Below are positions 2,290-31,499 of a stretch of 64,000 bases of DNA, in pieces. Every line of letters starts with the position of its first letter. The stretch's first letter is position 1. Below the pieces are notes generated by a model, which did no database searches, was not told the origin of the DNA, and saw nothing but the letters and a program-made list of their open reading frames with translations. The stretch is taken from positions 322,542 to 386,541 of the forward strand of contig CALKFG010000006.1 in NCBI GenBank assembly GCA_938084575.1, written 5' to 3'. Source of the stretch: an uncultured Hyphomonadaceae bacterium (GTDB lineage: Bacteria > Pseudomonadota > Alphaproteobacteria > Caulobacterales > Hyphomonadaceae). The position numbers and the translations under genes are program-made.

Positions 2290-2315
2290 AGCGATCTGCC
2301 CAAGAGGGGTGCGGA

Positions 2316-2807
2316 ATGAGGTCTCTTCTTTTTAGTCCAGCCGGACGGCTTGCGCCCCGGCGGTTCTGGCAGGCCCTGGTCATACTCACCGTTGCAAGCA
2401 CGCTTGTCGTGGCTGGTCAGGTCATGCTGTCAAGCAGTGTTGGCCTGTTCGGCTATTTTCTGATTTTTCCTTACATCTGTGTCTATGGAAAACGGCTCCA
2501 CGATACCGGGCGCACCGCCTGGTGGGTGGTTGGCGTTCTTTTCGCGACCCTGACCGTGCAATTTGTTGCCACCTTGTGCCTGGAGCCGGTTTTTTCGACT
2601 GAAGAAATTGAGTCCGTGCGCAGCCTGGTGACAGATCGCTTTCAGGCAGGTGATCTGGCGGGAATGATGCAGCAGGGCGAACGGCTGAACGCGCTTCTTC
2701 TGCCGTTAAACCTGCTCAACACGATTATCGGAAATGCTGTGGTGGGATATCTGGTCGGGCGTCTCAAGGGTGAAGCCGGGCACAATCAGTTTGGTCCCCG
2801 CCCCTGA
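2316..2807 (+). CDS. DUF805-type small membrane protein
   Basis: GRLAPRRFWQAL... YGKRLHDTGRTAWW pattern with several hydrophobic segments. Confidence 0.75.
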   Translation: MRSLLFSPAGRLAPRRFWQALVILTVASTLVVAGQVMLSSSVGLFGYFLIFPYICVYGKRLHDTGRTAWWVVGVLFATLTVQFVATLCLEPVFSTEEIESVRSLVTDRFQAGDLAGMMQQGERLNALLLPLNLLNTIIGNAVVGYLVGRLKGEAGHNQFGPRP

Positions 2808-2922
2808 CGCCTATAAGGGGATTGAAGGGCGATTTTTATTGAAAAACAAAAAGAAAATATCGATTGTAAATAAGGATTGGGCTGTGCTAAGGAAAGAAGC
2901 CCAGCGAAGATTCGTATAATCC

Positions 2923-3705
2923 ATGTCCCATTCGACTTCAGACTTACCGCCGCTTGACCCAGCCCGTCCCTGGATCACAGATCCGGAGGACCTCCCGTCT
3001 CGGATAAATTGGCTGGCCACCCTTTTCAATGTGATGGGGCGCAGCTCCAGATTACACTTCACGCGGGCCTGGACCCTGCTATTCATGTTACAATTCCTCT
3101 TCGTCTTCGGTGGCGGGCTGCTCCTCTTCATCCTGGCGTTGACCGGTGTCGACACGGCGGGCTTGTCGGTGGCAAAACAGTATGCCAGTGCGGCCGTCTT
3201 TCTGGTCACTGGCCTGATGTCTTTTGTTATTCACAATCGGCGGCTGGCGGATGCGGGCAAGTCATCGGCCTGGGCAGTTTTGATCCTCTTGCCGCTTGTG
3301 ATTGCAGGCACGGTCACTCTTGGAAATATTCAGAAGAGCGCGGCGGAGTATGACGTTATGTACCAAAAACGTGCGGCATTCCTGGAGGACCCGGGCGCGT
3401 TCCGTGAAGAGGCGCTGGAACGCCGCCGGGAGGCGCAGAAAGCACGCGCAGATGCCCGCGAGGATGACGATGCGGGTGGCGAGGCGGCAAGCCGTGGCCC
3501 GAGACGCGGCGGCGATCGGGGAGGCCGTCGCGGCTTTAATGCAGAGAATGAAATGCCGGATCAGGAGACGTTCGTTCTGAGACCGCATGTTGGGGCTTTT
3601 GTTACGCTGATGATGCTTCTCAGTGCCTTTCTGGTGCCATGGAGCCTGATGGTCGTGGCGCGTGCAGCTCCAAAGGGAAGAGACCTGCAGGCTGCTGCGG
3701 GTTAA
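2923..3705 (+). CDS. DUF805-like membrane protein with charged loop
   Basis: NRRLADAGKSSAWAVL motif, TM segments, Arg/Asp-rich loop. Confidence 0.6.
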   Translation: MSHSTSDLPPLDPARPWITDPEDLPSRINWLATLFNVMGRSSRLHFTRAWTLLFMLQFLFVFGGGLLLFILALTGVDTAGLSVAKQYASAAVFLVTGLMSFVIHNRRLADAGKSSAWAVLILLPLVIAGTVTLGNIQKSAAEYDVMYQKRAAFLEDPGAFREEALERRREAQKARADAREDDDAGGEAASRGPRRGGDRGGRRGFNAENEMPDQETFVLRPHVGAFVTLMMLLSAFLVPWSLMVVARAAPKGRDLQAAAG

Positions 3706-7818: not shown

Positions 7819-8985
7819 ATGGTCGCCAATATGCGGACATCCATTGCGGGTCTTGACCTGATCAAGACCTATGAAGGGTTTCGGGCTGATCCACTGTCGC
7901 TGGGTGAGGCCCGCTGGCTCATCGGATTTGGGCATGTCCATGTCGGCGAAAAACCGGGTCGGCTGAGCCGGGGTGAAGCGGAGATTCTTCTAAAGGAATA
8001 TGATCTGGTTGCGGCGGAAGACAGTCTCCAGCAGAGGATTTTAACGCCCCTCAACCAGAACGAATTCGATGCCCTGGTCAGCTTCGCCTTCAGTCTCGGG
8101 CTGGAAGCCTTTGAAACCAGCGATGTTGCGTCCTTGTTGAACTCGGGGGATCGCATCGCCGCTGCACATGCCTTTGAGCAGTGGAATCAGAGCCTTCTGG
8201 CGAACAAGGTCCAGATCGTGGAATCTCTGGTGCGACGCCGGGCGGCTGAAAAAGCGCTTTTTCTGACGACTCCGGGAGAGATGCCGGCGACCGCGTCTGC
8301 CCTTTACCGGCCGGTGAGATCTCCTGCCTTTGGACCGGGCCTTGCTGACGCCGCACCCGAGGCGGAGGCGCCACCAGCAGCCATAGCGCCGGCCATGTCG
8401 TCAATCCCTCTGGCGCCAGCCGAATCAGGGGGCAGGCGGGCTGAGGCATTTGAAGGACGGCGTCTGGTTCGGACACTCGGGGAAGATACTGAGGACACGT
8501 CCGAACAGATCAGTCCGGAAGCGATCACCAAGGCTGTATCTGATCTGGCGCGCCTGACGCGGGAGAGCCCGCCGGAGGCCCTCGATGTCATTGCCGGGGC
8601 CAGATCCGACAAGGCAGAGCCGCCGCGCCAGCCCATCGACGATCTTGAGGTGGTCAGGCTGTCGGCGGATGATGTCGCCAGAGGGATTGAGGAGAACCGC
8701 CGTTTGGCCGGTCAGTCGCTCGCTGTTTTGACACCGGGTGTCGTGGTGTTCGCGCTCGCCTCATTGGCCGGATTTGTTATTTCCCTTGCCGGCTTGTTTG
8801 GTGCCATCCATTTTGCCCGCGACTCCGACGCGTCGTCGGGTTTCCTCGTCACATATGGACCCGTTCTGGCATATGTTTCAGGCGGCTTGGTCTGCGTGAT
8901 GATGATCTATGCGCTTGTCCTGACCTGGCACAGAAATCACTTTCATGCGGGCGGGGGGCTTGGCGATGAAGGGTCTCTCGGTTAG
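7819..8985 (+). CDS. spmX: SpmX-like protein: degenerate GH24 muramidase domain, Pro/Ala-rich linker, two C-terminal TM segments
   Basis: TYEGFRADPLSLGEARWLIGFGHV / PLNQNEFDALVSFAFSLGLEAF / LVRRRAAEKALFL resemble Caulobacter SpmX; two C-terminal hydrophobic helices. Confidence 0.75.
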   Translation: MVANMRTSIAGLDLIKTYEGFRADPLSLGEARWLIGFGHVHVGEKPGRLSRGEAEILLKEYDLVAAEDSLQQRILTPLNQNEFDALVSFAFSLGLEAFETSDVASLLNSGDRIAAAHAFEQWNQSLLANKVQIVESLVRRRAAEKALFLTTPGEMPATASALYRPVRSPAFGPGLADAAPEAEAPPAAIAPAMSSIPLAPAESGGRRAEAFEGRRLVRTLGEDTEDTSEQISPEAITKAVSDLARLTRESPPEALDVIAGARSDKAEPPRQPIDDLEVVRLSADDVARGIEENRRLAGQSLAVLTPGVVVFALASLAGFVISLAGLFGAIHFARDSDASSGFLVTYGPVLAYVSGGLVCVMMIYALVLTWHRNHFHAGGGLGDEGSLG

Positions 8986-16893: not shown

Positions 16894-16941
16894 TTCTCTT
16901 TGACACTTGGCGGGGCGACGCGGCTGGGCTTAACAAGAGGC

Positions 16942-18408
16942 ATGACCCCATCGAAACCGCCCGCAATTGCAGAAGAAACCTCGCTCGATCCGGCGGACTG
17001 GGAGGCGTTCGCCAACACCGCGCACCAGCTTCTGGACCAGGCCATGGACCGGCTCAGAACCGCGCGGGACGGCCCGGTCTGGCGCCCGGTGCCCGAGGCG
17101 CTGAAGGCCGGTCTGGCCGCGCCCGTGCCACGTGATCCCGAAGGCAGTGCCGATGTGGCCACCGCGCTGGCCGGGCTTCTGCCCTATGGCGTGGGCAATA
17201 CCCATCCGCGCTTCTTTGGCTGGGTTCATGGCTCAGGTGCCCCGGGAAATCTGCTGTCTGACATCACCGCGGCCGCCCTGAATGCCAATTGCGGCGGACG
17301 GGATCATGCCGCCATCTATGTCGAACGCCAGGTCGTCGCCTGGTGCCGCGAGCTGTTCGGTTTCCCGCAGACCGGCTCTGGCCTGGTGGTGTCGGGCACC
17401 TCCATGGCGACGCTGATCGCGCTCAAAACGGCCCGCGATGCGGCGCTTGATTTCACCAGCCGGGACCAGGGCCTCGGGCCGTCGGTTCTGGTCGGCTATG
17501 CTGCGCGGTCCGCCCATAGCTGCATTGCCCGGACCTTTGACCTTCTGGGTCTCGGGACCGACGCGCTCCGGCGCATTGAGACCGATGCCGATGGCCGCAT
17601 GAACCTCGACGCCCTGGCCTGCCAGATCCGGCGGGACCGCGACGCCGGCCTGCAGCCGGCCATGCTTGTTGGAACCGCTGGAACGGTCGATATCGGCGCA
17701 ATTGACGATCTGTCCGCCCTCGCCGACATTGCGGCTGAACAGGGCTTGTGGCTGCATGTCGACGGCGCGTTTGGCGCCTGCGCGATCCTGTCGGACGAGC
17801 TGCGCCCCCGGCTGGCGGGGATTGAGCGGGCCCAGTCCTTGGCCTTCGATTTCCACAAATGGCTGCATGTGAATTATGATGCCGGCTGTGTCCTGATCCG
17901 TGACGGAGCGCTGCATCGCCGGGCCTTTGCGGTGACCCCCGACTATCTGTCACAGGAGGTCCGGGGCCTGGCCGCCGGCGCGCCCTGGCCGGTGGATTTC
18001 GGTCCCGAACTGTCCCGCGGCGCACGGGCCATCCGGGTCTGGGCGCATCTGAAAGAGCATGGCACCCGCCGCCTGGGACAGATGATCCGCCGCAACTGCG
18101 AACAGGCGGCCTATCTCGCCGACCGGGTCGATGCGACTCCCGAACTGGAACGTCTGGCCCCCGTCGCGCTGAATATTGTCTGCTTCCGGGCGACACGCCC
18201 GGAAGGCGAGGCGGGCGCACTGGACCAGCTGAACCGGGACATCGTCATCGCCCTGCAGGAAAGTGGTCTGGCTGCCCCGTCGACGACGCGGATCGGTGGT
18301 GTTCTGGCCATCCGGGTCAATCTGACCAATCACCGGACGCGCCGTCAGGATCTTGACCTTCTGGTCGAGGCGACGGTGCATTTGGCCCGTGAGCTGACCG
18401 CCGGATGA
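16942..18408 (+). CDS. PLP-dependent group II (aromatic-L-amino-acid type) decarboxylase
   Basis: LWLHVDGAFGACAIL and FDFHKWLHVNYDAGCVLIRD (Schiff-base Lys) motifs; start trimmed to MTPSKPP. Confidence 0.82.
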   Translation: MTPSKPPAIAEETSLDPADWEAFANTAHQLLDQAMDRLRTARDGPVWRPVPEALKAGLAAPVPRDPEGSADVATALAGLLPYGVGNTHPRFFGWVHGSGAPGNLLSDITAAALNANCGGRDHAAIYVERQVVAWCRELFGFPQTGSGLVVSGTSMATLIALKTARDAALDFTSRDQGLGPSVLVGYAARSAHSCIARTFDLLGLGTDALRRIETDADGRMNLDALACQIRRDRDAGLQPAMLVGTAGTVDIGAIDDLSALADIAAEQGLWLHVDGAFGACAILSDELRPRLAGIERAQSLAFDFHKWLHVNYDAGCVLIRDGALHRRAFAVTPDYLSQEVRGLAAGAPWPVDFGPELSRGARAIRVWAHLKEHGTRRLGQMIRRNCEQAAYLADRVDATPELERLAPVALNIVCFRATRPEGEAGALDQLNRDIVIALQESGLAAPSTTRIGGVLAIRVNLTNHRTRRQDLDLLVEATVHLARELTAG

Positions 18409-18532
18409 CCCCGGGCTGAGGACCGGCTGACCCCGGTCTGACCTCTGGCCAGGCCCGGGCCGGACGGTGATAAGGACCGGCCTGTCCAGCACAGATCGCC
18501 CGTCAATACAGGAAAATCGGACAAACAATCCG

Positions 18533-18552
18533 ACCGGGTCCGTAACCGGGTC
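18533..18552. repeat. Direct repeat ACCGGGTC-N4-ACCGGGTC upstream of GTA gp1
   Basis: Two exact 8-mers with 12-bp period just before ATG 18563. Confidence 0.6.
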
Positions 18553-18562
18553 ATGATGGGGC

Positions 18563-19099
18563 ATGACCGAATTGCCCGCCAGGCCCCAGCGACGCTGGGC
18601 ACGACAGCACGAGCTTGAAACGCGGCTGCGCCTGGGGCTGGGGCAGGGGCCAGCGGAAATTGCCGCGGCGCTGGGATTTCATCCCCGCACCGTGCGCGGT
18701 CACATTCGCGGCGATGGGCTGTGCCCGCCTGCCAGTGGGTCCGAGCGCCGCGCGCTGGCCCTGTCACTGGATGAAGAGCGGGCCGTCCAGGCCCTTTTGT
18801 CCGCACAACCGGGATCGCCGGCGCAGGCCCGGCTCAGGACCAGCCTGATGGCAGGCCTGCCGGCATCCCCGCCGCTGCAAGAGCAGGAGACCGAAATGAG
18901 ATCACTTAAGGAAATCAGGGAGATGAGCGACGATGAGCTGCGGGCTTATGTGGCCTCTCTGGTGCCGGGACTGGAGAGCAAAGCCACTCCAGACCCTGAC
19001 GCCCGGCCAGAACGCACTGATGGCGAAATATCCGTTTCTGAGGACGGCCCGTCCGGATCAGAAACCCCCGGCGCCGGGTCCGGGCCCGACCTGGCGTAA
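18563..19099 (+). CDS. GTA gp1-like terminase small subunit (HTH protein)
   Basis: HTH-like segment (GQGPAEIAAALGFHPRTVRGHIR) immediately upstream of and overlapping TerL; position = GTA gp1. Confidence 0.6.
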   Translation: MTELPARPQRRWARQHELETRLRLGLGQGPAEIAAALGFHPRTVRGHIRGDGLCPPASGSERRALALSLDEERAVQALLSAQPGSPAQARLRTSLMAGLPASPPLQEQETEMRSLKEIREMSDDELRAYVASLVPGLESKATPDPDARPERTDGEISVSEDGPSGSETPGAGSGPDLA

Positions 19100-20255
19100 C
19101 TGGCTGATGCTGGGCGGACGCGGAGCCGGAAAGACCCGGGCCGGAGCCGAATTTATCCGGTTCGCCGTGACCACCGGCTTTTATCGCAGGGTGGCCCTGG
19201 TCGGCCCGACCCTCGGCGATGTGCGCGAGATCATGATTGAGGGCCCCTCCGGGCTCAAGGCGATTGAGCAGGTGACCGACTGGTATCCCCATTACAACGC
19301 CTCCCGGCGCCGGCTGGAATGGCCTTTCGGGGCCAGCGCCACGGTGTTTTCTGCGGAAGAGGCGGACCGGTTAAGGGGGCCGCAATTCGATGTCGCCTGG
19401 TGTGATGAGATTGCCAGCTGGCCGCGGGGTGAAGACAGCTGGGACATGCTGCAGCTGGCTCTGCGCCTTGGCCCGGCGCCATGCTGCGTTGCCACCACCA
19501 CGCCGCGTCCGGTGCCCCTGCTGCGCCGGCTGGTCGGGGGTGAGGCGACGATTACCCGCGCCACCACAGCCGACAATCGCGCTTTCCTCGCGCAGGGCTT
19601 CGTCGATCAGGTCAGCCGGGCCTATGCCGGCACCCCTCTGGGGCGCCAGGAACTGAATGGCGAGCTGATCGATGACCCCGACGGCGCCCTGTGGACCCGC
19701 TCCATGATTGACGCCGCGCGGGTGACCGCGCCGCCAGACCGGTTTGACGATCTGATCGTTGCGCTGGACCCGGCGGCCAGCAGCGGGGCGCGGGCCGATC
19801 AGTGCGGCATCATTGCCGCCGGCGTGGCCAGCGAATCCGGCTTCGGCCGCCGGGCCTTTGTCCTGCGAGACGCGACCGTGCGCGGCCTGCGCCCACTCGA
19901 CTGGGGCGCGCGCGTTGCCGCCCTGGTCCGGGAGACCAGCGCCCGCAGCATAATTGCCGAGGCCAATCAGGGCGGGGAGATGATCCGTGCCGTGCTCGAC
20001 AGCGCGGCGTGCGGGGTTCCGGTGGACCTGCGCCACGCCCGGCTTGGCAAGCGCGCCCGGGCGGCACCCGTTGCGGCGCTGTATGGCCGCGGCCTGGTCA
20101 GCCATGTCGGGGTCCTTGCCGGTCTGGAAGACGAAATGTGCCGGTTCGGCGTCGAGGGTGTGTTGCCCTCGCCCGATCGGGTCGATGCGCTGGTCTGGGC
20201 GATCAGTGCGCTTCTGGTCGAACCCGGCGGGGCGCCCCGCCTGCGGTCTGTGTGA
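19020..20255 (+). CDS. GTA terminase large subunit (gp2, TerL)
   Basis: Walker A GGRGAGKTRAGAEF, RLRGPQFDVAWCDEIA, nuclease motif VALDPAASSGARADQCGIIAAG; start trimmed to MAKYPFL. Confidence 0.92.
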   Translation: MAKYPFLRTARPDQKPPAPGPGPTWRNWLMLGGRGAGKTRAGAEFIRFAVTTGFYRRVALVGPTLGDVREIMIEGPSGLKAIEQVTDWYPHYNASRRRLEWPFGASATVFSAEEADRLRGPQFDVAWCDEIASWPRGEDSWDMLQLALRLGPAPCCVATTTPRPVPLLRRLVGGEATITRATTADNRAFLAQGFVDQVSRAYAGTPLGRQELNGELIDDPDGALWTRSMIDAARVTAPPDRFDDLIVALDPAASSGARADQCGIIAAGVASESGFGRRAFVLRDATVRGLRPLDWGARVAALVRETSARSIIAEANQGGEMIRAVLDSAACGVPVDLRHARLGKRARAAPVAALYGRGLVSHVGVLAGLEDEMCRFGVEGVLPSPDRVDALVWAISALLVEPGGAPRLRSV

Positions 20256-20280
20256 TGCGTCGTGATGATGGAGAAGCCTT

Positions 20281-21393
20281 ATGAGATGGCCCTGGCAACC
20301 TGCTGAAACCAAGACGGCGCGGGCCTTTACCGCCCTGTCCGGCCTGCCCGCGGTGCAGTGGGGCAGCCGTGATGACGGGGCGCTGATGCGCGACGGCTAT
20401 GTCGGCAATGCGGTGTGTCATCGCTGCGTCCGCATGGTGGCGGAAACGGCAGCCTCGATCCCGCTGCGCGCGGCGCCTTCCGACCTTGCCAGCCTGTTGC
20501 AGACGCCGTCGCCGGACATGTCGGGCCGGGTGTTGCTGGAGCGGATCTATACCGACCTTCAACTGACCGGTAATGCCTGGCTTGAGGCCGTCTCCCTGCC
20601 GGATACGCCGCGGCCGCGGGGGCTCTATGCCTGGCCGGTGCATGCGGCCCGGCCGGTCCGCAACCGTCTGGGCCAGGTGATCGGTCATGCGCTGCGCACG
20701 GTGCGGGGTGACCGGACCGTCCTGCCGGGGCCGGATGGCTGGTCGTCGGTGCTGCATCTGAAACTGTATCATCCGGGCGATCCCGGTCTTGGCCTGTCGC
20801 CCCTGGCGGCGGCCCGGCAGGCGCTGGATCTGCACAATGGCACGGCCAACTGGGCCAAGGCCCTGCTGGACAATGCGGCCCGGCCCTCTGGCGCCCTGGT
20901 CTATGGACGCGAGGGGCAACGCCTGAGCGATGACCAGTTTGACCGCCTCAAGGAAGAGCTGAACCGGACCCAGTCCGGGGCGGAGAATGCAGGCCGGCCG
21001 CTGCTTCTGGAAGGCGGGCTGGACTGGCGCCCGATGTCGCTCAGCCCGACCGAGATGGACTTTCGTGAAACCCGCCATGCCGCGGCGCGTGAAATTGCGC
21101 TCGCTTTCGGTGTGCCGCCCATGCTGCTGGGGATTCCCGGTGACAACACCTATGCCAATTACCGCGAGGCGAATCTGGCCTTCTGGCGGATGAGCGTTCT
21201 GCCCCTGGTGGTGCGGACCGCGGAGACCCTGGCGCATTGGCTGGACGGACGCTTTGCCGGTGCCAGCCTGTCGCCCGATCTCGACGAGGTCCCCGCTTTT
21301 GCTGCCGAGCGCGAGGCGCTGTGGAACCGCATCGGCGCGGCAGACTTTCTCAGCGATGCCGAGAAACGCCGGCTTCTGGGGCTGCCGGCATGA
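20281..21393 (+). CDS. GTA portal protein (gp3, HK97 family)
   Basis: HK97 portal signatures (NAVCHRCVRMVAETAASIPL, TGNAWLEA, FGVPPMLLGIPGDNTYANYREANLAFWR). Confidence 0.92.
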   Translation: MRWPWQPAETKTARAFTALSGLPAVQWGSRDDGALMRDGYVGNAVCHRCVRMVAETAASIPLRAAPSDLASLLQTPSPDMSGRVLLERIYTDLQLTGNAWLEAVSLPDTPRPRGLYAWPVHAARPVRNRLGQVIGHALRTVRGDRTVLPGPDGWSSVLHLKLYHPGDPGLGLSPLAAARQALDLHNGTANWAKALLDNAARPSGALVYGREGQRLSDDQFDRLKEELNRTQSGAENAGRPLLLEGGLDWRPMSLSPTEMDFRETRHAAAREIALAFGVPPMLLGIPGDNTYANYREANLAFWRMSVLPLVVRTAETLAHWLDGRFAGASLSPDLDEVPAFAAEREALWNRIGAADFLSDAEKRRLLGLPA

Positions 21394-21803
21394 CCCCCGC
21401 GGCCAGCCTTTTGACACCGGCACCGCTGCTGATTGAGGGGTATGCCAGCCTGTTCGGCGCGGTGGATCTCAGCGGTGATACCGTGCGCCCGGGCGCCTTT
21501 GCCCGGTCCCTGAAATCCGGACCTGTGCCGATGTTGCTGCAACATAAATCCGGTGCCGTCGCCGGCAGCTGGACCCGGCTGCGGGAGGATGGCCGCGGCC
21601 TCTATGTCCGCGGCCTGGTCGAATCCGACACCGCGAAACACCTGGTCCGGACTGGCCGGATCACCGGCCTGTCGATCGGTTTTCGCCCCCGGATCTGGTC
21701 GGCCAAGGCCGGTGCCGGGCGGTACCTCGCCGATGTCGACCTGGCTGAAATTTCACTGGTGGCCCTGCCAATGCTGGCCGCCGCCCGGTTTTCCATTGTC
21801 TGA
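21390..21803 (+). CDS. GTA prohead protease (gp4, HK97 family)
   Basis: LIEGYASLFGAVDLSGDTVRPGAFARSL; MLLQHKSGAVAGSW; LSIGFRP; ATGA overlap with portal stop. Confidence 0.9.
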   Translation: MTPAASLLTPAPLLIEGYASLFGAVDLSGDTVRPGAFARSLKSGPVPMLLQHKSGAVAGSWTRLREDGRGLYVRGLVESDTAKHLVRTGRITGLSIGFRPRIWSAKAGAGRYLADVDLAEISLVALPMLAAARFSIV

Positions 21804-21818
21804 AGAAAAGGAGACAGC

Positions 21819-22985
21819 ATGACTTTACCTTCCCCCCAGGACGCGCTGGCAGAGACGTTTGCGGCGTTTCGAGCGGAAAATGACGCGCGGCTGGCCGCGC
21901 TGGAAGCGGGCCGCGGGGCGGACCCGCTGGTCGAGGACAAGCTGCAGCGGATCGAGCGCTGTCTCGAGACACTCAGCCTCAAGGCGGCGGACCCTGATGC
22001 GTCACCCGTGTCGGCTGCGATGCCGGCCGATGCCCGGGGATCGGGTCCGGCCTGGCAGGCTTATTTGCGGGCCGGAGATGAGGCCGGCCTGCGCCGGCTC
22101 GACACCAAGGCGCTGTCGGCGAGCGTGCCGTCGGAGGGCGGATATGTTGCCCCGGCCGAGCTCGACCGGCTGATCGAGTCGCGGCTGCTGCAGGCCTCGC
22201 CCATGCGCCAGATTGCCAGCCTTCGCCAGACCTCGGCCGGCACCTATCGCAAGCCGGTCAGCCAGGGCGTCGGCGCCCAGTGGGTTGGCGAAAGCGACCC
22301 CCGGCTGGAAACCCCGGTCGAGGCGCTCAGCCTGCTGGATTTTCCGGCCGGAGAGCTGTTTGCCATGCCGGCCGCGACCCAGACCCTGCTGGACGATGCC
22401 TGGGCAGACCTTGATGCCTGGCTGGCCGACGAGGTCGAGGCCGCCTTCGCGGCGCAGGAAAATGCCGCCTTCATCCATGGGGACGGGGTCAACAAGCCGC
22501 GCGGCCTGCTCACCTATCCCCGGGCGCCGGAAGGTCAGGCGGGCTGGGGCGAGATTGCGACCCTGCCGGGGGATTTCTCCCAGCCGGAGGCGGGCGACCA
22601 GCTGATCGAGCTGATCCATGCCCTGAAAGCGCCGTATCGTGCCCAGGCCCGCTTTGTCATGAACCGCCGGACCGCGGCGTCGGTGCGCCGTCTGAAAGAC
22701 GCTGAGGGCCGGTATCTCTGGGCCCCCGGCGAGGCTGGCCAGTCCGCCCGCCTGCTTGGCTATGATCTGACCGAACTGGAGGACATGCCTGACATTGCGC
22801 CCGGCGCGGCGGCTGTCGCCTTTGGCAATTTCCGGAGGGCCTATCTGATCCTTGACCGTCAGGGCGCGCGGGTGCTGCGCGATCCCTATTCGGCCAAGCC
22901 CTATGTGTTGTTCTACACCACCAAGCGGGTCGGGGGCGGTGTGCAGAATTTCGATGCCGTCAAATGCCTGACGTTCGCGGGGTGA
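21819..22985 (+). CDS. GTA major capsid protein (gp5, HK97 family)
   Basis: Coiled N-terminal scaffold region; EGGYVAPAELDRLIE, FIHGDGVNKPRGLLTY, GYDLTELEDMPDI, AYLILDRQGARVLRDPYSAKPYVLFYTTKRVGG. Confidence 0.93.
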   Translation: MTLPSPQDALAETFAAFRAENDARLAALEAGRGADPLVEDKLQRIERCLETLSLKAADPDASPVSAAMPADARGSGPAWQAYLRAGDEAGLRRLDTKALSASVPSEGGYVAPAELDRLIESRLLQASPMRQIASLRQTSAGTYRKPVSQGVGAQWVGESDPRLETPVEALSLLDFPAGELFAMPAATQTLLDDAWADLDAWLADEVEAAFAAQENAAFIHGDGVNKPRGLLTYPRAPEGQAGWGEIATLPGDFSQPEAGDQLIELIHALKAPYRAQARFVMNRRTAASVRRLKDAEGRYLWAPGEAGQSARLLGYDLTELEDMPDIAPGAAAVAFGNFRRAYLILDRQGARVLRDPYSAKPYVLFYTTKRVGGGVQNFDAVKCLTFAG

Positions 22986-22988
22986 GCG

Positions 22989-23543
22989 ATGCTGCTGGAG
23001 GTTCTGAGCCCGCCAACCGGACCGGCTGTTCCCCTCGACGAGACCCGCGCCTTCCTGCGGCTTTCGGGGACCGGGGAGGATGCGCTGGTGGCGGGCCTGG
23101 CCGCCGCGGCCGAGACCCGGGTCGAGAGCGAGACAGGCCTGGTGCTGACGCCGCGACGCCTGCAGCGCCATCTGGCGTTTCGCCGGTCCGAGCTGCACAG
23201 CCCCGGGCTCCGGCTGCGGCCGGGACCGGTCCGCCGGATCGAGGCCGTGGTCCTCTCGACCGGGGCCGACCTGACCGCGCGGATGCGCTGGACCGGCCAC
23301 CGCCTTTGCCTGAGGGCGGGCGCCTGGCTGTCGGACCTGCCCCGCGACGGCGTCGTCCGGGTCATCTGGACGGCAGGCTTTGCCGCCCCCCCCGGCGTGC
23401 CGGCGGATCTGCGCCTGGCCATCAATCGGCTGGCGGCGGAGGGCTTCGCCCGCCGGGGGTTGCCCGGGGAGAGCGGGCTTCCGGCGCGCCTGCCGGCGGA
23501 CGTTGCAGCGATACTGGGGCACTATGCCGAGGTCCGGCTATGA
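22989..23543 (+). CDS. GTA head-tail adaptor (gp6; phage gp6-like connector)
   Basis: LDETRAFLRLSGTGEDALVAGLAAAAETRVESETGL; order in cluster. Confidence 0.85.
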   Translation: MLLEVLSPPTGPAVPLDETRAFLRLSGTGEDALVAGLAAAAETRVESETGLVLTPRRLQRHLAFRRSELHSPGLRLRPGPVRRIEAVVLSTGADLTARMRWTGHRLCLRAGAWLSDLPRDGVVRVIWTAGFAAPPGVPADLRLAINRLAAEGFARRGLPGESGLPARLPADVAAILGHYAEVRL

Positions 23544-23947
23544 CCCCGGAGCAGGCACTGGAAGAGGCACTGGTCGGTGGTCTGGCGGCGCAGCCAGAGG
23601 TCCAGTCCGTGCTCGGCCATCCGGCCCGGCTCTATGCCCGGCGACCGGGCCGGCCCGCCTATCCCTATGGCCTGGTCGAGCGCCACAGCGTCCAGCCGCT
23701 GGCGGCCGGCGACGGCGCCGCGACCGAGCACCGGATCGACATTGCCCTGTTCACCCGGCATGGCGGACGGGCCGATGCGCGCGACGCGCTGGCCGTGCTG
23801 CGTGGCGCCTTCGAGACGCTGCACCTGCTTCCGGAAGGCCGGCGCGTGATCCTGGCCCATACCGTCTATGCCGATACGATGCGGACCGCTCAGCTGACCG
23901 CTTTTCGCGGGTTGATGCGGGTGCGCATCCTGATGGAGGCGGCCTGA
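23540..23947 (+). CDS. GTA tail terminator (gp8, DUF3168)
   Basis: DUF3168-like protein; ATGA overlap with gp6 stop; ORF track entry 22964-23947 starts upstream, trimmed to ATG 23540. Confidence 0.82.
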   Translation: MTPEQALEEALVGGLAAQPEVQSVLGHPARLYARRPGRPAYPYGLVERHSVQPLAAGDGAATEHRIDIALFTRHGGRADARDALAVLRGAFETLHLLPEGRRVILAHTVYADTMRTAQLTAFRGLMRVRILMEAA

Positions 23948-23948
23948 T

Positions 23949-24365
23949 ATGCCGGCTTTGAAAGGACAGGACTTGCTGCTGAAAATGTCGGACGGCCAGG
24001 TCCCGGAGGGGTTTGTCACCCTGGCGGGCCTCCGAAGCCGCGAGATTGTGATGAATGCCCGCCCGGTTGATGCGACCAGTGCCGACAGTCCGGAGGGCTG
24101 GCGGGAACTGCTCGGGGGCAGCGGCCTGCGCACGGCCCGGATTGAGGGCCGGGGCATTGTCCGTGACGCCGCCAGTGATGCCCGGATCCGGACCGTTTTC
24201 TTTGCCGGTCATCCGGTACGCTGGCAAATTGTCGTGCCGGGCCAGGGCCGGCTGACCGGCCCGATGCAGATCACGGCCCTGAGCTGGTCAGGCCAGCATG
24301 ACGGCGTCGCGAGCTTTGCCATCACGCTGGAAAGCGCCGGGCCACTGGCCTTCGAGACGGCATGA
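23949..24365 (+). CDS. GTA major tail protein (gp9, TP901-1 type)
   Basis: KGQDLLLKMSDGQVPEGFVTLAGLRSREIVMNARPVDATSADSPEGWRELL. Confidence 0.9.
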   Translation: MPALKGQDLLLKMSDGQVPEGFVTLAGLRSREIVMNARPVDATSADSPEGWRELLGGSGLRTARIEGRGIVRDAASDARIRTVFFAGHPVRWQIVVPGQGRLTGPMQITALSWSGQHDGVASFAITLESAGPLAFETA

Positions 24366-24661
24366 CCGGCCCGGCTGTCAACACGGCCCGCGGCGAGGTT
24401 GCGCTGCGGCTGGGCCGCGACTCGGTTCGGCTGTGTCTCACCCTCGGGGCGCTTGCCGAGCTGGAAAGCGCGCTCGGCTGTGACTCGATATCGGACCTGC
24501 AGGTCCGGCTGGGACGGCTCGGTGGGGGCGAATTGCTGACTGTGCTGGATATTCTGGTCCGGGCGGGGGGCGGCCCGCCCGCGGGGGTCAGCCTCGCCGC
24601 GGTTCATCCCGGTGATGCGGCCCGGGCCGTGGCGGAGGCGTTCCGTGTTGCCCTGGCCTGA
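24362..24661 (+). CDS. GTA gp10 (tail tube/GTA-gp10 family)
   Basis: NTARGEVALRLGRDSVRLCLTLGALAELESALG pattern; position. Confidence 0.82.
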   Translation: MTGPAVNTARGEVALRLGRDSVRLCLTLGALAELESALGCDSISDLQVRLGRLGGGELLTVLDILVRAGGGPPAGVSLAAVHPGDAARAVAEAFRVALA

Positions 24662-24662
24662 C

Positions 24663-24854
24663 ATGTGGCGGGCGGCCCGCCATGCGGGCCTGGCGCCGGA
24701 GGCCTTCTGGCGCCTGTCCCTGAAAGAATGGCGCTGGTTGTGTGCGGCGGGGGGGGACCCCCTCGACCGGGCCCGGCTGGCTGAATTGATGGAGATGTGT
24801 CCCGATGACGGACTTCGAAGACGAACTGACAGCGGCGGGTGCCGCACTGAGTGA
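24663..24854 (+). CDS. GTA tail assembly chaperone (gp10.1, TAC-alpha like)
   Basis: MWRAARHAGLAPEAFWRLSLKEWRWLCAA; ORF trimmed; position between gp10 and gp11. Confidence 0.72.
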   Translation: MWRAARHAGLAPEAFWRLSLKEWRWLCAAGGDPLDRARLAELMEMCPDDGLRRRTDSGGCRTE

Positions 24855-25185
24855 GCTGGTCGAAGGGCCGGGTCAGGCCGCGGCCGAGGCCCTGCAACGC
24901 GCCTTTGAGACCGCCGGCACCGGGATTGAGCAGGCCCTGTCGCGGGCGGCGCGCACGGGCGAGCTGGATTTTCAGCATATGGCGGATTCGATCCTCGCCG
25001 ATCTCGCCCGGATAGCGGCCGAAGCGATCCTCGCCCGCACCGGCATGACCCAGCTGGCACAGCCGCTAACGGTCAATCTGGGCCTTGGACAGGCACCTCC
25101 AACAGGGGCGCGGTCGGGGCCCGTGCCGGGAGAGATCGCCGGTATGGTGGCGGCCCTGGCGGCGCGGGGCGGGCGGTTCCTGTGA
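24805..25185 (+). CDS. GTA tape-measure-like protein (gp11), short
   Basis: Helical 126-aa protein between gp10.1 and gp12. Confidence 0.75.
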   Translation: MTDFEDELTAAGAALSELVEGPGQAAAEALQRAFETAGTGIEQALSRAARTGELDFQHMADSILADLARIAAEAILARTGMTQLAQPLTVNLGLGQAPPTGARSGPVPGEIAGMVAALAARGGRFL

Positions 25186-25799
25186 GGGGGTTTCATTATG
25201 TCTCTTTCCCGGCGGAGCTGGCACCGGGCATTCGCGGCGGCCCTGAATTCAGGACCCAGATCACCGAGCTGGCCAGCGGCCATGAGCTGCGCAACAGCCC
25301 GTGGGCCGGCTCGCGCCGCCGGTGGGAGGTCGGAACGGCGCTTCGTGACCTGGCAGAATTGCGGGTGCTGATGGCGTTTTTCGAGGCCCGGCGGGGCCCG
25401 CTGCATGGGTTTCTGTTCCGCGACCCGTTCGACCATAGCAGCGCCGCGCCCGGTCAGCGGCCCGGTCCGGACGATGTCCGGCTGGGGACCGGCGATGGGA
25501 CCCGCACGCGATTCGCACTGCTCAAGGGGGAGGGGGTGTCGGCCCGGCCCATACTGACCCCGGTGGCGGCCAGCGTGCAGGTGTCGGTCGACGGACAGCC
25601 TCGCCGGCAGGGATGGACCCTTGCGGCTGGCGGGGTGCAGTTTGAACGCCCTCCCGCCGCCGGCGCCGAGGTCCGGGCCGGGTTTTTGTTCGATGTTCCG
25701 GTTCGCTTTGAGCAGGACCGGCTTGACGGGCTCATTGATGCCTTTGGCGCGGGCCGGGTGGTGAGCCTTGGCCTGGTTGAATTGCTGGAGATAAGCTGA
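25182..25799 (+). CDS. GTA distal tail protein (gp12, DUF2460)
   Basis: FHYVSFPAELAPGIRGGPEFRTQITELASGHELRNSPWA…RRWEVG; FRDPFDHSS. Confidence 0.92.
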   Translation: MRGFHYVSFPAELAPGIRGGPEFRTQITELASGHELRNSPWAGSRRRWEVGTALRDLAELRVLMAFFEARRGPLHGFLFRDPFDHSSAAPGQRPGPDDVRLGTGDGTRTRFALLKGEGVSARPILTPVAASVQVSVDGQPRRQGWTLAAGGVQFERPPAAGAEVRAGFLFDVPVRFEQDRLDGLIDAFGAGRVVSLGLVELLEIS

Positions 25800-26446
25800 T
25801 GAAATCTGTGTCACCTGCCCTGAAAGCCCGACTGGACGGGGCTGTCACCACCATATGCCTGGGATGGAAACTGATCCGGCGCGATGGCGTGGTCATTGGC
25901 CTGAGCGACCATGATCGCCGCATCGTGGTAGACGGGCTGGAGCTGCATCCGGGGGCCAGCCTCGAGGCTGTGCGCTTGACCCAGACGACGGATTTGCGAC
26001 CGGGCCAGGCCGAAATTCGCGGTGCACTGTCGGCCGATGCTCTGAGCGAGTCCGATCTCGAGGCCGGCCTTTGGAACCGCGCCCGGGTCGAGGTTTTCCG
26101 GTTTGACTGGACGACACCGGAGCTGGGCGGACTGCCGGTCTGGACCGGGTTGCTCAGCGAGGTCGTTCAGCGCGCAGACGGCGCCTTCTCGGCCGAGCTG
26201 GTGTCGCTCAAGGCAGAACTCGAACGCCCCGTTGGCCGCCGGATCATGCGGCACTGTGATGCCGAACTGGGCGACCGGCGCTGTGGGATCGCGCCGGGGC
26301 AGGGGATGCGCTGTGACCAGCGGTTCGAAACCTGCCGGGACGTGTTCCGGAACACCGAGAATTTCCGCGGCTTTCCCCATTTGCCGGGTCCGGATTTCAT
26401 TCTCGCCGGTCCGGGTGCCGGCCCGCATGATGGCGGCCGGCGATGA
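25799..26446 (+). CDS. GTA gp13 (DUF2163, tail hub, Cys-rich)
   Basis: DUF2163-type N-terminus; CDAELGDRRCGI…CDQRFETC…NTENFRGFPHLPGPDF; TGATG coupling with gp12. Confidence 0.9.
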   Translation: MKSVSPALKARLDGAVTTICLGWKLIRRDGVVIGLSDHDRRIVVDGLELHPGASLEAVRLTQTTDLRPGQAEIRGALSADALSESDLEAGLWNRARVEVFRFDWTTPELGGLPVWTGLLSEVVQRADGAFSAELVSLKAELERPVGRRIMRHCDAELGDRRCGIAPGQGMRCDQRFETCRDVFRNTENFRGFPHLPGPDFILAGPGAGPHDGGRR

Positions 26447-26925
26447 CCCGGGAGGATGTGATCGCCGCGGCGCGTCTGTGGATCGGGACGCCCTATCGCC
26501 ACCAGGCCAGCGTGCGCGGGCAGGGATGTGACTGTCTCGGCCTGTTGCGGGGGGTCTGGCGAGACTGCGTCGGCGCAGAGCCGGAGGTCGTGCCGCCCTA
26601 CAGTCCTGACTGGGCTGAGCTGTCGACCCGGGACACCCTGCTGATGGCCGCCCGGCGGCACCTTGTGGCGTGCGCGCTCGACGCGCTGCGCCCCGGCGAC
26701 GTGCTGCTGTTTCGCATGGGGCCAGGGCATCCGGCCAAGCATTGTGCCATCCTGTCACGGCCGGCACGGATCATTCATGCCTATTGGGGGCGCACAGTCT
26801 GTGAAACCGCTTTGGTTGGCTGGTGGCAGCGGCGCCTTGTGGCGGGTTTCTCCTTCCCCGGGCTCGATCCGGATCAGACCCGGGCGCGCCCTGATCCCGG
26901 GCGCGCCGGGATGGGGGCGGCCTGA
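26443..26925 (+). CDS. GTA NlpC/P60 cell-wall peptidase (gp14)
   Basis: RLWIGTPYRHQASVRGQGCDCLGLLRGVWR; GHPAKHCAIL (Cys/His). Confidence 0.92.
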   Translation: MTREDVIAAARLWIGTPYRHQASVRGQGCDCLGLLRGVWRDCVGAEPEVVPPYSPDWAELSTRDTLLMAARRHLVACALDALRPGDVLLFRMGPGHPAKHCAILSRPARIIHAYWGRTVCETALVGWWQRRLVAGFSFPGLDPDQTRARPDPGRAGMGAA

Positions 26926-29900
26926 TGGCACAGCTTGTTCTGTCCCAGATCGGGGCGACGATCGGGACCCATGTCCTGCCCCAGGGCCTGTCTGTTCTGG
27001 GTCAAAGCCTGTCGGGCGCAGCCCTTGGTGGCACGCTGGGGGGACTGGTGGGCCGGACAATCGATGCCAGCCTGGCGCCGCCGGTCCATGGCCCGCGCCT
27101 GCACAGCCTGCACATCATGGAAAGCCGGGAAGGGGCCAGCCTGCCCCTGCTTTACGGGCGCATGCGGGTGCCCGGACAGCTCATCTGGGCGTCCCGGTTC
27201 CGGGAGCAAAACCGCAAGGTTTCGGCGGGCAAGGGCGGGCCCAAACAGGTCCAGTACAGCTATACCGTCAGCCTTGCGGTTGCCCTGTGCGCGGGCGAGG
27301 TGACCCGGCTGGGACGCGTCTGGGCGAATGGGGCGCCACTCGATCTGGGTGACCTGAACTGGCGGTTTTACCCGGGGTCTGCAGATCAGATGCCCGACCC
27401 TCTGTTGCAGGCGGTTGAGGGGACCGATCAGGTCCCGGCCTATCGAGACACCGCCTATATCGTTCTGGAGGACCTGCCGCTTGGCCCGTTTGGCAACCGG
27501 CTGCCACAGCTGTCCTTCGAAGTTATCCGGGCCAGCGCCGTGTATCCGGGCAGCCTGCGACAGGCCCTGACCAGCATCAATATCATTCCGGCCTCGGGCG
27601 AGTTCGTCTATGCGACCCGCCCCGTGCGTGCCCGCAGGTTCCCGGCATCGGAACGGCCGCTTAATCTCAATGCATCGGCCCGGGAGCCAGATTTTCTGGT
27701 GTCGCTGGCGCAGATGCAGGCGGACCTGCCCGCCCTTACCGCGGCGACGTTGCAGGTTGCCTGGTTTGGCGACGACCTGCGCGCAGGCGTGGCCAAACTG
27801 CGTCCGGGTGTCGAAACCCGTGATCGCGACACCGTGCCTTATGTCTGGCAGGTTGCCGGGCAGAAGCGTGGCCTGGCCTATCGGGTCTCGCAACAGGATG
27901 GCCGCCCGAATTATGGTGGCACACCGGCGGACCAGGCGGTTCTGGAGGGGCTTACAGCCTTGCACCAGGCCGGGCTGGCGACGACTCTGTCCCCGTTCCT
28001 CCTGATGGACATACCGGCCGGCACGACCCGCCCGGGCGTCGACGGGAAAGGGCCTCAGCCGGCCTTTCCGTGGCGGGGGCGGATCCGGTCGGGCGCTGAT
28101 GGCCAGCGCGCCGCGCGTGCCCACATCGACGCATTTATGGGACAGGATGGCGGGTTTGGGTATCGCCATTTTATTCTGCATTATGCGCGGCTGGGCGCAG
28201 CGTTTGGGCGGTTGGAGGCCTTCCTGATCGGCTCTGAACTGGTTGGCCTGACCCGGTTGCGCGATGATGAGGGCCGGTTTCCCTTCGTCGAGGCCCTGAT
28301 CAGCCTGGCGGCCGAGGTTCGCCACATTCTGGGGCCGCAGGTCAAGCTGTCCTATGCCGCGGACTGGACTGAATATGGCGCCTGGCAGCCGACGGGGCAG
28401 GCGGATGCCCTGTTTCCACTGGACCCGCTCTGGGCCAGTCCCGACATCGATTTCGTTGCGATTGACTGGTACCCGCCGGTGACGGACTGGCGCGACGGCG
28501 ATCAGCATATAGACGCCCGGGCTGGGGTGCCATCGGTGGACGACCCCGGCTATTTGCGGACCGGCATGGCCGGTGGCGAGGCCTATGACTGGTTTTATAG
28601 CGATGCGGCGGATCGCGAAGCGCAGCGCCGCACCCCGATACGGGACACCGCGCATGGTGAGGACTGGGTGTTTCGGCCCAAGGATGTGTCGGGATGGTGG
28701 CGTCATGCGCATTATCCCCGCCGGAGCGGAGAGCGACAGGCAACGCCGACGGGCTGGAGTCCGAAAAGCAAGCCGGTGCGCCTGACCGAACTGGGGTGCG
28801 CCGCGGTGGATCGCGGGTCGAATGCGCCGAACCGGTTCCTCGACCCGAAGAGCGATGACAGTGGCCTGCCGCCCTTCTCGACGGGACAGCGCGATGACGT
28901 GTTGCAGCGCCGCATGCTGGAGGCGGCCCTCGACTGGGCCGGACAGGAGCCGGCGATTGAGCAGGTCAGTGCCTGGTGCTGGGATGCCCGCCCCTGGCCG
29001 GCCTTTCCCCAGCGCGCTGAGGTGTGGAGCGATGGTGACAACTGGGCCCGCGGCCATTGGCTGAATGGCCGGATCGGTCAGATCAGCCTTGGCGAGGTGA
29101 TCGACGACCTGCTGTCACTGGCCGGGCTGAGGACGGATGTCCGGGCCCTGAACGGTCCGGTTGACGGCATCGCCCTGCACGGACCGGTTCGTCTGCGCGA
29201 TGCCTTGGCCCCGTTCATGGCGGCCTTTGACCTGATCTGCCTCGAACGGGACGCTGCGCTGGTGTTCCGGCCGGCCCTGTTGGCCGGGCCGCCCCATTCG
29301 CTGGGTCGGCCGGTAAGCCACAGCGAGTTTCGGACCCGAAGCCTGATGGATAAGGCGCCCTGGGCCCTGCAGCTGAGCTATGTCTCGGACACCGACGCCT
29401 ATGCGCCTTCTGTGGTCGAGGCCCGACGCCGGCCGCAACACACGCCGGACCGGGCCCAGCTTGTCCTGCCCATGGTGCTGGGAGCGGCCCGCGCCCGGGC
29501 GATTGCAGCCCACCTTCTCGACCGGATGCTGGATCCGGGGGATTGGCGGGTCTCGCTGGGTCTGGGCAGCAGCATGCTGGAGCCGGGGGATCATCTGGCG
29601 GATGCGGATGGCCGGCTCTGGCGCCTCATCGGGCTGGTCGATCAGGGGCCAGTGCGCCAGCTTGAGCTGATCCCGGCGCCGGAGGCGCTGGCATTGCCCC
29701 GGGCCCTGGCGCCGCCTGATCCGGGACCGCCACCGGTCCGTCCGGCCGACCCTGAGCTGTGGGTGATTGACGGTCCGCGCCTCGACCCGGCGATCGTCGG
29801 CCCGCTGCTGGCCTGTGCGGCGGATCCCTGGCCGGGCCCGGTCACGGTGCGCGCCGGCCGCGATGAAACAGGACTGACCGACCGGGCCGTCTGCGACCAG

Positions 29901-30596
29901 CCGGCTGCCATGGGGCAGGTGGTGCAGCCCCGGGGGGCTGGTCCCCTCGGGCGCTGGGATCTCGGGCCTCCGCTGAGGGTTGAGCTGCCCGGACAGGCGC
30001 TGGCGCGGGTTTCGACCGGTGCCATGCTGGCCGGTGCCAACCGGCTGCTGGTCCAGCATGACAGGGGCTGGGAGCTGATCGGCTTCAAGGATGCCGAATT
30101 GACCGCCCAGGGGCACTGGGCCCTGTCGGGCTTGCTGCGGGGGCTGGCGGGCAGCCCGGTGGGTGTTTTTGGGGCCGGCGCCCGATGTGTCCGGGTTGAT
30201 CCGGATCTGCGCGTGGCGGCGGTCTCCGCTTCCGAGATCGGGGTGGAGCTGATCTGGCAGGCTGGCGGCGGGGCACCCCGGCCGGTGCGGTTTGATGATC
30301 GGGCGGGCCGGCCCTGGCGGGTCGGACATTTGCGGGTACAGCCCGTCGGGACCGGCTGGAGGCTGCGCTGGACGCGGCGTGGTGCTGACATCGCGGTGGC
30401 CTGGGCGCTGCCGGAGGCCGAAAATCACGGCCGCTTCCGGCTGCGGGCCCTGCTGCCGGACGGGACCTGGGAAGAGACGGAAACCCGGCGGGCCGGGGCG
30501 GAGCTGGCGGGTCAGGTCTTGCAGGCCGAGGTGTCGGAAATCGGGCCCGACGGGCGCACAGGTCCATGGGTTTCCATTCTTCTGCCACGCGATTAA
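26925..30596 (+). CDS. GTA gp15 host-specificity/tail tip protein ('megatron', TIM-barrel-like domain)
   Basis: 1223 aa; LYGRMRVPGQLIWASRF…, TIM-barrel segment LSYAADWTEYG…FVAIDWYPPVTDWRD, KPVRLTELGCAAVDRGSNAPNRF; last gene of GTA cluster. Confidence 0.93.
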   Translation: MAQLVLSQIGATIGTHVLPQGLSVLGQSLSGAALGGTLGGLVGRTIDASLAPPVHGPRLHSLHIMESREGASLPLLYGRMRVPGQLIWASRFREQNRKVSAGKGGPKQVQYSYTVSLAVALCAGEVTRLGRVWANGAPLDLGDLNWRFYPGSADQMPDPLLQAVEGTDQVPAYRDTAYIVLEDLPLGPFGNRLPQLSFEVIRASAVYPGSLRQALTSINIIPASGEFVYATRPVRARRFPASERPLNLNASAREPDFLVSLAQMQADLPALTAATLQVAWFGDDLRAGVAKLRPGVETRDRDTVPYVWQVAGQKRGLAYRVSQQDGRPNYGGTPADQAVLEGLTALHQAGLATTLSPFLLMDIPAGTTRPGVDGKGPQPAFPWRGRIRSGADGQRAARAHIDAFMGQDGGFGYRHFILHYARLGAAFGRLEAFLIGSELVGLTRLRDDEGRFPFVEALISLAAEVRHILGPQVKLSYAADWTEYGAWQPTGQADALFPLDPLWASPDIDFVAIDWYPPVTDWRDGDQHIDARAGVPSVDDPGYLRTGMAGGEAYDWFYSDAADREAQRRTPIRDTAHGEDWVFRPKDVSGWWRHAHYPRRSGERQATPTGWSPKSKPVRLTELGCAAVDRGSNAPNRFLDPKSDDSGLPPFSTGQRDDVLQRRMLEAALDWAGQEPAIEQVSAWCWDARPWPAFPQRAEVWSDGDNWARGHWLNGRIGQISLGEVIDDLLSLAGLRTDVRALNGPVDGIALHGPVRLRDALAPFMAAFDLICLERDAALVFRPALLAGPPHSLGRPVSHSEFRTRSLMDKAPWALQLSYVSDTDAYAPSVVEARRRPQHTPDRAQLVLPMVLGAARARAIAAHLLDRMLDPGDWRVSLGLGSSMLEPGDHLADADGRLWRLIGLVDQGPVRQLELIPAPEALALPRALAPPDPGPPPVRPADPELWVIDGPRLDPAIVGPLLACAADPWPGPVTVRAGRDETGLTDRAVCDQPAAMGQVVQPRGAGPLGRWDLGPPLRVELPGQALARVSTGAMLAGANRLLVQHDRGWELIGFKDAELTAQGHWALSGLLRGLAGSPVGVFGAGARCVRVDPDLRVAAVSASEIGVELIWQAGGGAPRPVRFDDRAGRPWRVGHLRVQPVGTGWRLRWTRRGADIAVAWALPEAENHGRFRLRALLPDGTWEETETRRAGAELAGQVLQAEVSEIGPDGRTGPWVSILLPRD

Positions 30597-30629: not shown

Positions 30630-31499
30630 ATGGCCAAAGATCTTTATGCGACATTGGGGGTCTCCCGATCGGCACCGGCCGACGAGATCCGGCGCGTCTA
30701 CAAGCGCAAGGTCAAGGAGCTGCACCCCGACCTGCACCCCGGTGATACCGCCAAGGCAGACGCCTTCAAGCAGGTCTCCGCGGCGTATGAAATTCTCGGG
30801 GATGAAACCCGTCGCCGGCAATATGACCGGGGTGAAATTGATGAGCAGGGTGCCCCGCGCGGCTTTGCCCGGGCTGGCCCGGGTGGTGCAGGTCCAGGGG
30901 GGCGGCCTGGTGGGTTTAGCCATTCGGGAAGCTTCCAGGGCGACCCGTTTGAAGACATTCTGTCGGGCATGTTTGGCGGTGGACGCCGGCGACCCGGTCC
31001 GCAGAAGGGCGGCGATATTCGCTATCAGGTCGAGGTCGCCTTTGAAGACGCCGCGCTCGGAGCCAAGCGGGAAATGACCATGGCGGATGGCCGGGTCCTG
31101 AATGTGTCGATACCGGCCGGCGTGGAGACCGGGCAGACCCTGCGGCTGAAAAGCCAGGGGCGGCCCTCGCCAAGTGGTGGCCCGCCCGGCGACGCGCTGC
31201 TCGAGCTGATCGTTCGCCAGAGCAAGGTCTGGATCCGCGACGGCGATGATCTGCGCATGAATGTACCGGTGCCGCTGAGCATAGCGGTGCTTGGAGGCAG
31301 CATCGAGGTCGCCACGCCGACCGGACCGATTACGCTGAAAATCCCTGAGGGATCGAATTCGGGTGCGGTCCTGCGCCTGCGACACAAGGGCATTCAGCGC
31401 AAGGGCGCCCCCGGCCATCTTTATGTCCGGCTGGAGATCATGATCGACCATCCCAAGGATCCCGACCTGCGAAAATGGGCCAAGTCGGTACGCAAATGA
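30630..31499 (+). CDS. DnaJ-class molecular chaperone
   Basis: J domain DLYATLGVSRSAPADEIRRVYKRKVKELHPDLHPGD; GGRPGGF G/F region; DnaJ C-terminal domain. Confidence 0.88.
   Translation: MAKDLYATLGVSRSAPADEIRRVYKRKVKELHPDLHPGDTAKADAFKQVSAAYEILGDETRRRQYDRGEIDEQGAPRGFARAGPGGAGPGGRPGGFSHSGSFQGDPFEDILSGMFGGGRRRPGPQKGGDIRYQVEVAFEDAALGAKREMTMADGRVLNVSIPAGVETGQTLRLKSQGRPSPSGGPPGDALLELIVRQSKVWIRDGDDLRMNVPVPLSIAVLGGSIEVATPTGPITLKIPEGSNSGAVLRLRHKGIQRKGAPGHLYVRLEIMIDHPKDPDLRKWAKSVRK

Follow-up and report, generated by a model that had tools for sequence, protein, structure and literature searches.

Gene transfer agents (GTAs) are inherited bacterial genes for virus-like particles which move pieces of the producer's DNA into other cells. 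The locus described here is of a kind already known from RcGTA of Rhodobacter capsulatus (PMC7296036) and CcGTA of Caulobacter crescentus (PMC9632790, PMC11150451). The Caulobacter cluster has two activators, GafY and GafZ, the latter letting RNA polymerase past a terminator, and gafZ is strictly required for cluster transcription (PMC11150451). A homologue of gafA was found in 196 of 208 GTA-containing genomes, so that the gene is not universal (PMC9765227). That gp7, and indeed entire clusters, can be lost has also been published in general terms (PMC9765227, PMC10883770). In Sphingomonadales, g7 was present in only 7 of 55 genomes, the slot held nothing in 26 of the 55 and some members carried a short replacement gene in its place (PMC9765227).

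The window analysed covers 64 kb of contig 6 in a 2.33-Mb, 96% complete assembly of a Hyphomonadaceae bacterium whose named relatives are Henriciella and Hyphomonadaceae MAGs. Between positions 18563 and 30596, it carries 15 genes, gp1 to gp15, on the forward strand and in the RcGTA order, without gp3.5 and gp7. These include every gene named in a sequence-only reading of the same DNA, and no internal stop was detected in any of the 15 cluster ORFs. The cluster is flanked upstream by a pyridoxal-dependent decarboxylase gene (16900-18408) and downstream by a dnaJ-type host gene (30630-31499, forward strand; DnaJ_C, E = 2.2e-36), a conserved 3' flank which adjoins gp15 or a gp15 remnant in nearly all loci. 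Adjacent genes overlap at nine of the 14 junctions (five by 4 bp, two by 1 bp and the others by 80 and 50 bp) and the remaining five junctions are gaps of 1-25 bp; the 15 head and tail genes are a probable single operon.

Searches with Pfam, NCBIfam and PHROGs identified TerL, portal, protease, capsid, adaptor, terminator, tail tube, two tail chaperones, tape measure, DUF2460, hub, NlpC/P60 peptidase and megatron. The product of gp1 (18563-19099), a 178-aa HTH protein in the small-terminase position, was recognised by a weak HTH match on an intact ORF, and homologues occupy the same place in G013 and G007 (44-52%) and in G024 (76%). TerL, of about 411 aa, is encoded by gp2 (19020-20255); Terminase_6N (9.8e-27) and Terminase_6C (2.7e-10) were matched on the longer ORF starting at 18933, and the Walker A (GGRGAGKT) and Walker B (DE) motifs were read by eye in the sequence. 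The head genes continue with the portal gp3 (20281-21393; RcGTA portal Rcc01684, 1.1e-96; Phage_portal, 2.1e-73), the prohead protease gp4 (21390-21803; TIGR01543, 1.2e-21) and the major capsid protein gp5 (21819-22985; RcGTA capsid Rcc01687, 5.5e-81; TIGR01554, 1.7e-95). When the small proteins were joined and searched with phmmer, the tape measure alone gave a match, and gp6 and gp8 were recognised by profiles. The adaptor gp6 (22989-23543) matched TIGR02215 (5.9e-20), and the gp6 profile built from relatives had the RcGTA adaptor Rcc01688 as its sole match (1.7e-28). For the tail terminator gp8 (23540-23947), the profile matched the RcGTA terminator Rcc01690 (5.9e-7) and also SPP1 gp17. The tail genes are completed by the tail tube gp9 (23949-24365; RcGTA tail tube Rcc01691, 1e-33), gp10 in a tail assembly chaperone position (24362-24661; PF11836 GTA-gp10, 1.5e-9), the tail assembly chaperone gp10.1 (24663-24854; PF09550 Phage_TAC_6, 1.5e-11 on the ORF from 24612), the tape measure gp11 (24805-25185; Tape_meas_lam_C, 9.2e-12), the distal tail protein gp12 with a GTG start (25182-25799; DUF2460; RcGTA Rcc01695, 8.1e-46), the baseplate hub gp13 (25799-26446; RcGTA hub, 1.6e-38, in two stretches), the NlpC/P60 tail peptidase gp14 (26443-26925; TIGR02219, 4.9e-61) and the 1223-aa megatron baseplate protein gp15 (26925-30596). 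The latter reached 1215 bits with the NCBI equivalog NF048004 GTA_megatron, the cut-off of which is 800 bits, and matched the RcGTA megatron (6.8e-203) and the GTA TIM-barrel PF13547 (3.5e-119). The locus shares with RcGTA (PMC7296036) both the gp1-gp15 order and homologues of the portal, capsid, adaptor, terminator, tube, distal tail, hub, peptidase and megatron proteins.

At 18500-18540, upstream of gp1, the inverted repeat TCGGACAAACAATCCGA was observed. It is the window version of an element, AATCCGAC, which precedes gp1 in three species (the window, L040 and L050) and could be a regulator site. In L037 (G008), an in-frame stop apparently divides gp1 into an HTH part and a C-terminal part, and in the sister clade (clade A) no gp1 was detected within 2.6 kb upstream of gp2.

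In comparison with RcGTA, the cluster lacks gp3.5 and the gp7 stopper, genes whose presence varies among such clusters (PMC9765227). The sequence-only reading had noted that there is no room for either, in agreement with the 4-bp overlaps measured at both gp3/gp4 and gp6/gp8. In most family members, the gap between portal and protease holds an ORF of ~75 aa with membrane and coiled-coil character (gp3.5); it was missing from the window genome, G009 and G010. As most congeners still have the gene, this pattern indicates a local loss. A different distribution was found for gp7. A profile built from seven gp7 proteins of Caulobacterales, which recognised the RcGTA stopper among PDB entries, detected a stopper in none of 37 Hyphomonadaceae genomes, whereas it matched 14 genomes of other Caulobacterales families. 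On these profile searches, the loss of gp7 is an old trait of the whole family and not as a feature special to the window genome.

In six relatives (L045, L046, L048, L053, L057 and L058), the gap between gp5 and gp6 contains a conserved ORF, of 67 aa in most, with the sequence MFESIxxxLxRQAxLLTKPQQDEFTTK... This short ORF was considered as a displaced gp7 and rejected, its product being unlike gp7.

Two other tail proteins are shortened. The 215-aa hub (296 aa in RcGTA) aligns with the flanking domains of the RcGTA hub, the missing middle being exactly the oligosaccharide-binding domain, and it retains the four Fe-S cysteines (153, 162, 172 and 179). Because the same cut is present in most genera of Hyphomonadaceae (G034 excepted), in another family (G041, G045) and in G051, this hub form probably arose more than once, as far as the alignments indicate. 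The tape measure gp11, of 126 aa, is shortened after the long helix when compared with RcGTA: the helical part is retained and the block around AYLVGERGPELF, a beta/loop region present in other families, is missing. The sequence-only reading was right about the absence of gp3.5 and gp7 and had overlooked the loss of the hub domain, the short gp11, the absence of gafZ and the cluster losses in relatives.

A probable GTA tail-fibre gene (53393-54652, forward strand) combining DUF2793 (PF10983, 1.4e-24) with an S74 chaperone domain (PF13884, 2.3e-8) was found 23 kb downstream of the cluster; its true start is probably ~50 codons inside the called ORF. Of 61 Caulobacterales genomes, 53 contain DUF2793, as does the C. 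vibrioides control. RcGTA and the window have in common a DUF2793-type fibre encoded apart from the cluster, and in RcGTA the domain is carried by Rcc00171. Rcc00171 is the RcGTA tail fibre (PMC7296036).

Upstream, 9.6 kb from the cluster, a lysozyme-domain gene (PF00959) lies at 7819-8985. Its product has a long linker and two apparent C-terminal membrane segments, and it is a candidate lysis gene.

The fate of the activators was followed in the whole assembly. GafY is encoded on another contig (C3:224321-224626), as a protein separate from any GafZ. Pfam PF20057 alone was too weak for Hyphomonadaceae, as it missed GafZ in most of the congeners which have the gene, and a family profile was rebuilt; with this profile, no GafZ was found in the window assembly. 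The conserved gene order is a MucR-like gene, a PAS-like gene, gafY, gafZ where present, and sufE (minus strand), the names other than gaf being read from sequence and not from a family search. In the window genome, gafY is followed directly by sufE with a gap of about 70 bp and the gafZ slot is empty. By profile and by synteny, gafZ is cleanly missing; a distant gafZ, or a gp7, could lie in an assembly gap. GTA-containing genomes usually encode GafA or both GafY and GafZ, a trait which is not strictly defining, and the window genome has GafY alone. This differs from RcGTA, in comparison with which GafY is a separate protein, and from CcGTA (PMC9632790, PMC11150451), which belongs to the same bacterial order, has a homologous cluster and a separate GafY, but needs the anti-terminator that is missing here.

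Among the 20 congeners whose cluster is mostly intact, 14 show the same absence, and GafZ was present in five species with the cluster lost. In clade A, GafZ was absent from all 14 species and most of the cluster was kept in 13 of them, two of which have an apparently shortened gp2. The loss of GafZ thus does not quickly bring the loss of the cluster, and intact clusters devoid of gafZ are stable, suggesting that, in clade A, the cluster may be controlled independently of GafZ. Borderline GafZ matches in this clade (E 0.04-0.06) were rejected, as they covered the HTH part only and the same second match occurs in genomes with a real GafZ.

In G001, G003, G025 and G028, gafZ is intact though the GTA cluster is lost, and gafY is intact too where it was checked (G001 and G003). 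The occurrence of gafZ in cluster-less species and its absence in many with an intact cluster raise the idea that these regulators may have another job.

In the genus comparison (29 species), the megatron was above the cut-off in 21 species, including G019, in which the stretch from gp2 residue 287 to gp15 residue 155 is deleted, and the other eight gave fragments or nothing. In total, the cluster has been lost or gutted at its site in nine of the 29 species. These nine include the nearest relative of the window genome, G024, in which the deletion extends, at the same site, from gp2 residue 31 to gp15 residue 1155. In the next relative, G007, it extends from gp2 residue 137 to gp15 residue 1007 and gafZ contains a stop. 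The other end points were gp3 104 to gp15 849 in G028 and gp3 325 to gp15 1004 in G003; in G015 (and in record L033) the cluster breaks off around residue 52 of gp4, immediately ahead of dnaJ, and in G006 the deletion lies inside gp15. Since the breakpoints differ between species, they indicate at least six or seven independent losses in place.

These data bear on two questions, namely whether the cluster is a GTA at all and whether it is still in use. Its parts are of phage origin, as would be expected also of an active or recently integrated siphophage prophage, but a prophage is extremely improbable here. Eight products (gp3, gp5, gp6, gp8, gp9, gp12, gp13 and gp15) matched solved RcGTA proteins, which were the best or nearly the sole matches for gp3, gp5, gp9, gp12, gp13 and gp15. 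In a TerL tree of class-wide genomes and phages, the window sequence was placed among the Hyphomonadaceae GTAs (support 99), themselves within the Caulobacterales GTAs (95), and the six true-phage TerLs fell outside the GTA clade; support for the deeper branches was 82-93. The cluster occupies the same site beside dnaJ in nearly all Caulobacterales loci examined, and the concatenated GTA tree and the GlnE tree recovered the same two groups of the genus. Together with the TerL tree, this constant site and the agreement of the trees point to a GTA that is vertically inherited at a fixed chromosomal position. No integrase, repressor, replication or other lysogeny gene was found among the window genes scanned with Pfam. 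The earlier remark that there is no other phage gene nearby was mistaken, as the tail-fibre gene shows. Even the two closest 'phage' database matches, MW091529 (L204) and MW462191 (L205), are GTA clusters themselves. With homologues of gp2 to gp15 in order, a megatron containing the TIM-barrel, TerL in the GTA clade and inheritance at a fixed site, the cluster is a domesticated RcGTA-type GTA and not a prophage, as the sequence-only reading had proposed. On the second question, the genes could be a relic, intact but disused, in a species en route to cluster loss like its nearest relatives. The clean absence of gafZ, the large gp2-to-gp15 deletions of both G024 and G007, the absence of most of the cluster in nine of 29 congeners and the small genome (2.33 Mb) are all compatible with this, as is a slight excess of changes at conserved sites. 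At otherwise invariant columns, the window genome has 88 changes in 1118 GTA positions (7.9%) and 16 in 298 GlnE positions (5.4%), a ratio of 1.47 against 0.74-1.06 in other long-branch species, an excess over GlnE judged not significant by hand calculation; its distance to the outgroup, relative to close congeners, is 1.22-fold for GTA and 1.12-fold for GlnE. Against disuse, the 15 genes carry neither stop nor frameshift despite a deep divergence from G024 (GlnE 77% identical in the matched part), the catalytic motifs were read as intact and 13 of the 14 gafZ-less species of the sister clade keep most of the cluster. A relic is thus somewhat unlikely. The unbroken genes and motifs make it rather probable that the cluster is functional, or recently was, the missing gafZ and the recurrent losses in relatives calling for caution. 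As an overall explanation, a vertically inherited RcGTA-type GTA of a Hyphomonadaceae bacterium, most likely functional or recently so, is held with good confidence.

By analogy with RcGTA and CcGTA, TerL would load HK97-type heads, matured by the protease, with host DNA in successive head-fulls, and the tail would deliver this DNA to kin after lysis of the producer. As no stopper ring is present, either the gp6 adaptor ring would dock straight onto the gp8 terminator ring, or a stopper with an unrecognised sequence would be supplied from elsewhere. The latter case, a working GTA in which an unrelated protein encoded elsewhere has taken over the role of gp7, competes with the two-ring neck and not with the GTA identity. 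The short replacement gene in the slot of some Sphingomonadales lends it plausibility (PMC9765227). That order is a different one, and the empty slot of the window resembles instead the 26 of 55 Sphingomonadales genomes with nothing there: the slot is without a gene in the window and in the other family loci measured, save G034 with its large gap, and the small gp5-gp6 ORF of some relatives is impossible in the 3-bp gap of the window. A substitute for gp7 was consequently considered unlikely. Direct contact between gp6 and gp8 is retained, tentatively, within a family particle that would combine this two-ring neck with a hub devoid of the sugar-binding domain, and with a GafY switch working without GafZ in at least two lineages, that of the window included; this combination is possible and stays short of probable. 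With the sugar-binding domain of the hub lost, contact with the receptor would be left to the fibre and to gp12 and gp15, and without GafZ the cluster would be switched on by GafY alone or by a replacement.

The cluster highlights GTA parts that can drop out while the rest stays intact, and it raises two questions, namely by what means a stopper-less head is joined to its tail and what activates a GTA in which the anti-terminator is missing. The genus, with intact clusters beside sisters carrying different in-place deletions, is a fine-grained record of recurrent GTA loss, which bears on why bacteria retain GTAs and on the origin of 'cheaters', an idea already put forward for GTAs (PMC10883770). 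No report of the hub-domain excision, of natural GafZ-less intact clusters or of a genus-level series of in-place deletions was found in the literature searched, in which subscription journals were thinly covered.

Some minor observations were made on the loci compared. MW091529 and MW462191, both labelled 'Bacteriophage sp.' by their depositors, contain GTA clusters of alphaproteobacterial type that lie on bacterial contigs, and they are apparently mislabelled: one ends in efflux genes and the other is surrounded by bacterial genes, among them penicillin-binding protein and fimbrial genes. A gene for a DM13-domain secreted protein of ~145-160 aa (PF10517, 2.5e-15), not present in the window, stands between gp14 and gp15 in L037 (10340-11020), L040, L042 and L047. 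Between gp2 and gp3, many family members (L037 at 1942-3487, L042, L047, L051, L058 and L059, and the decayed L033 and L049), but not the window, carry a 1.5-kb antisense pair coding for a ParA-like ATPase (~300 aa) together with a small protein whose C-terminus reads ...YxGRKxFRTG. In decayed clusters, gp2-parA-gp3 is often retained, as if the ParA pair were under selection.
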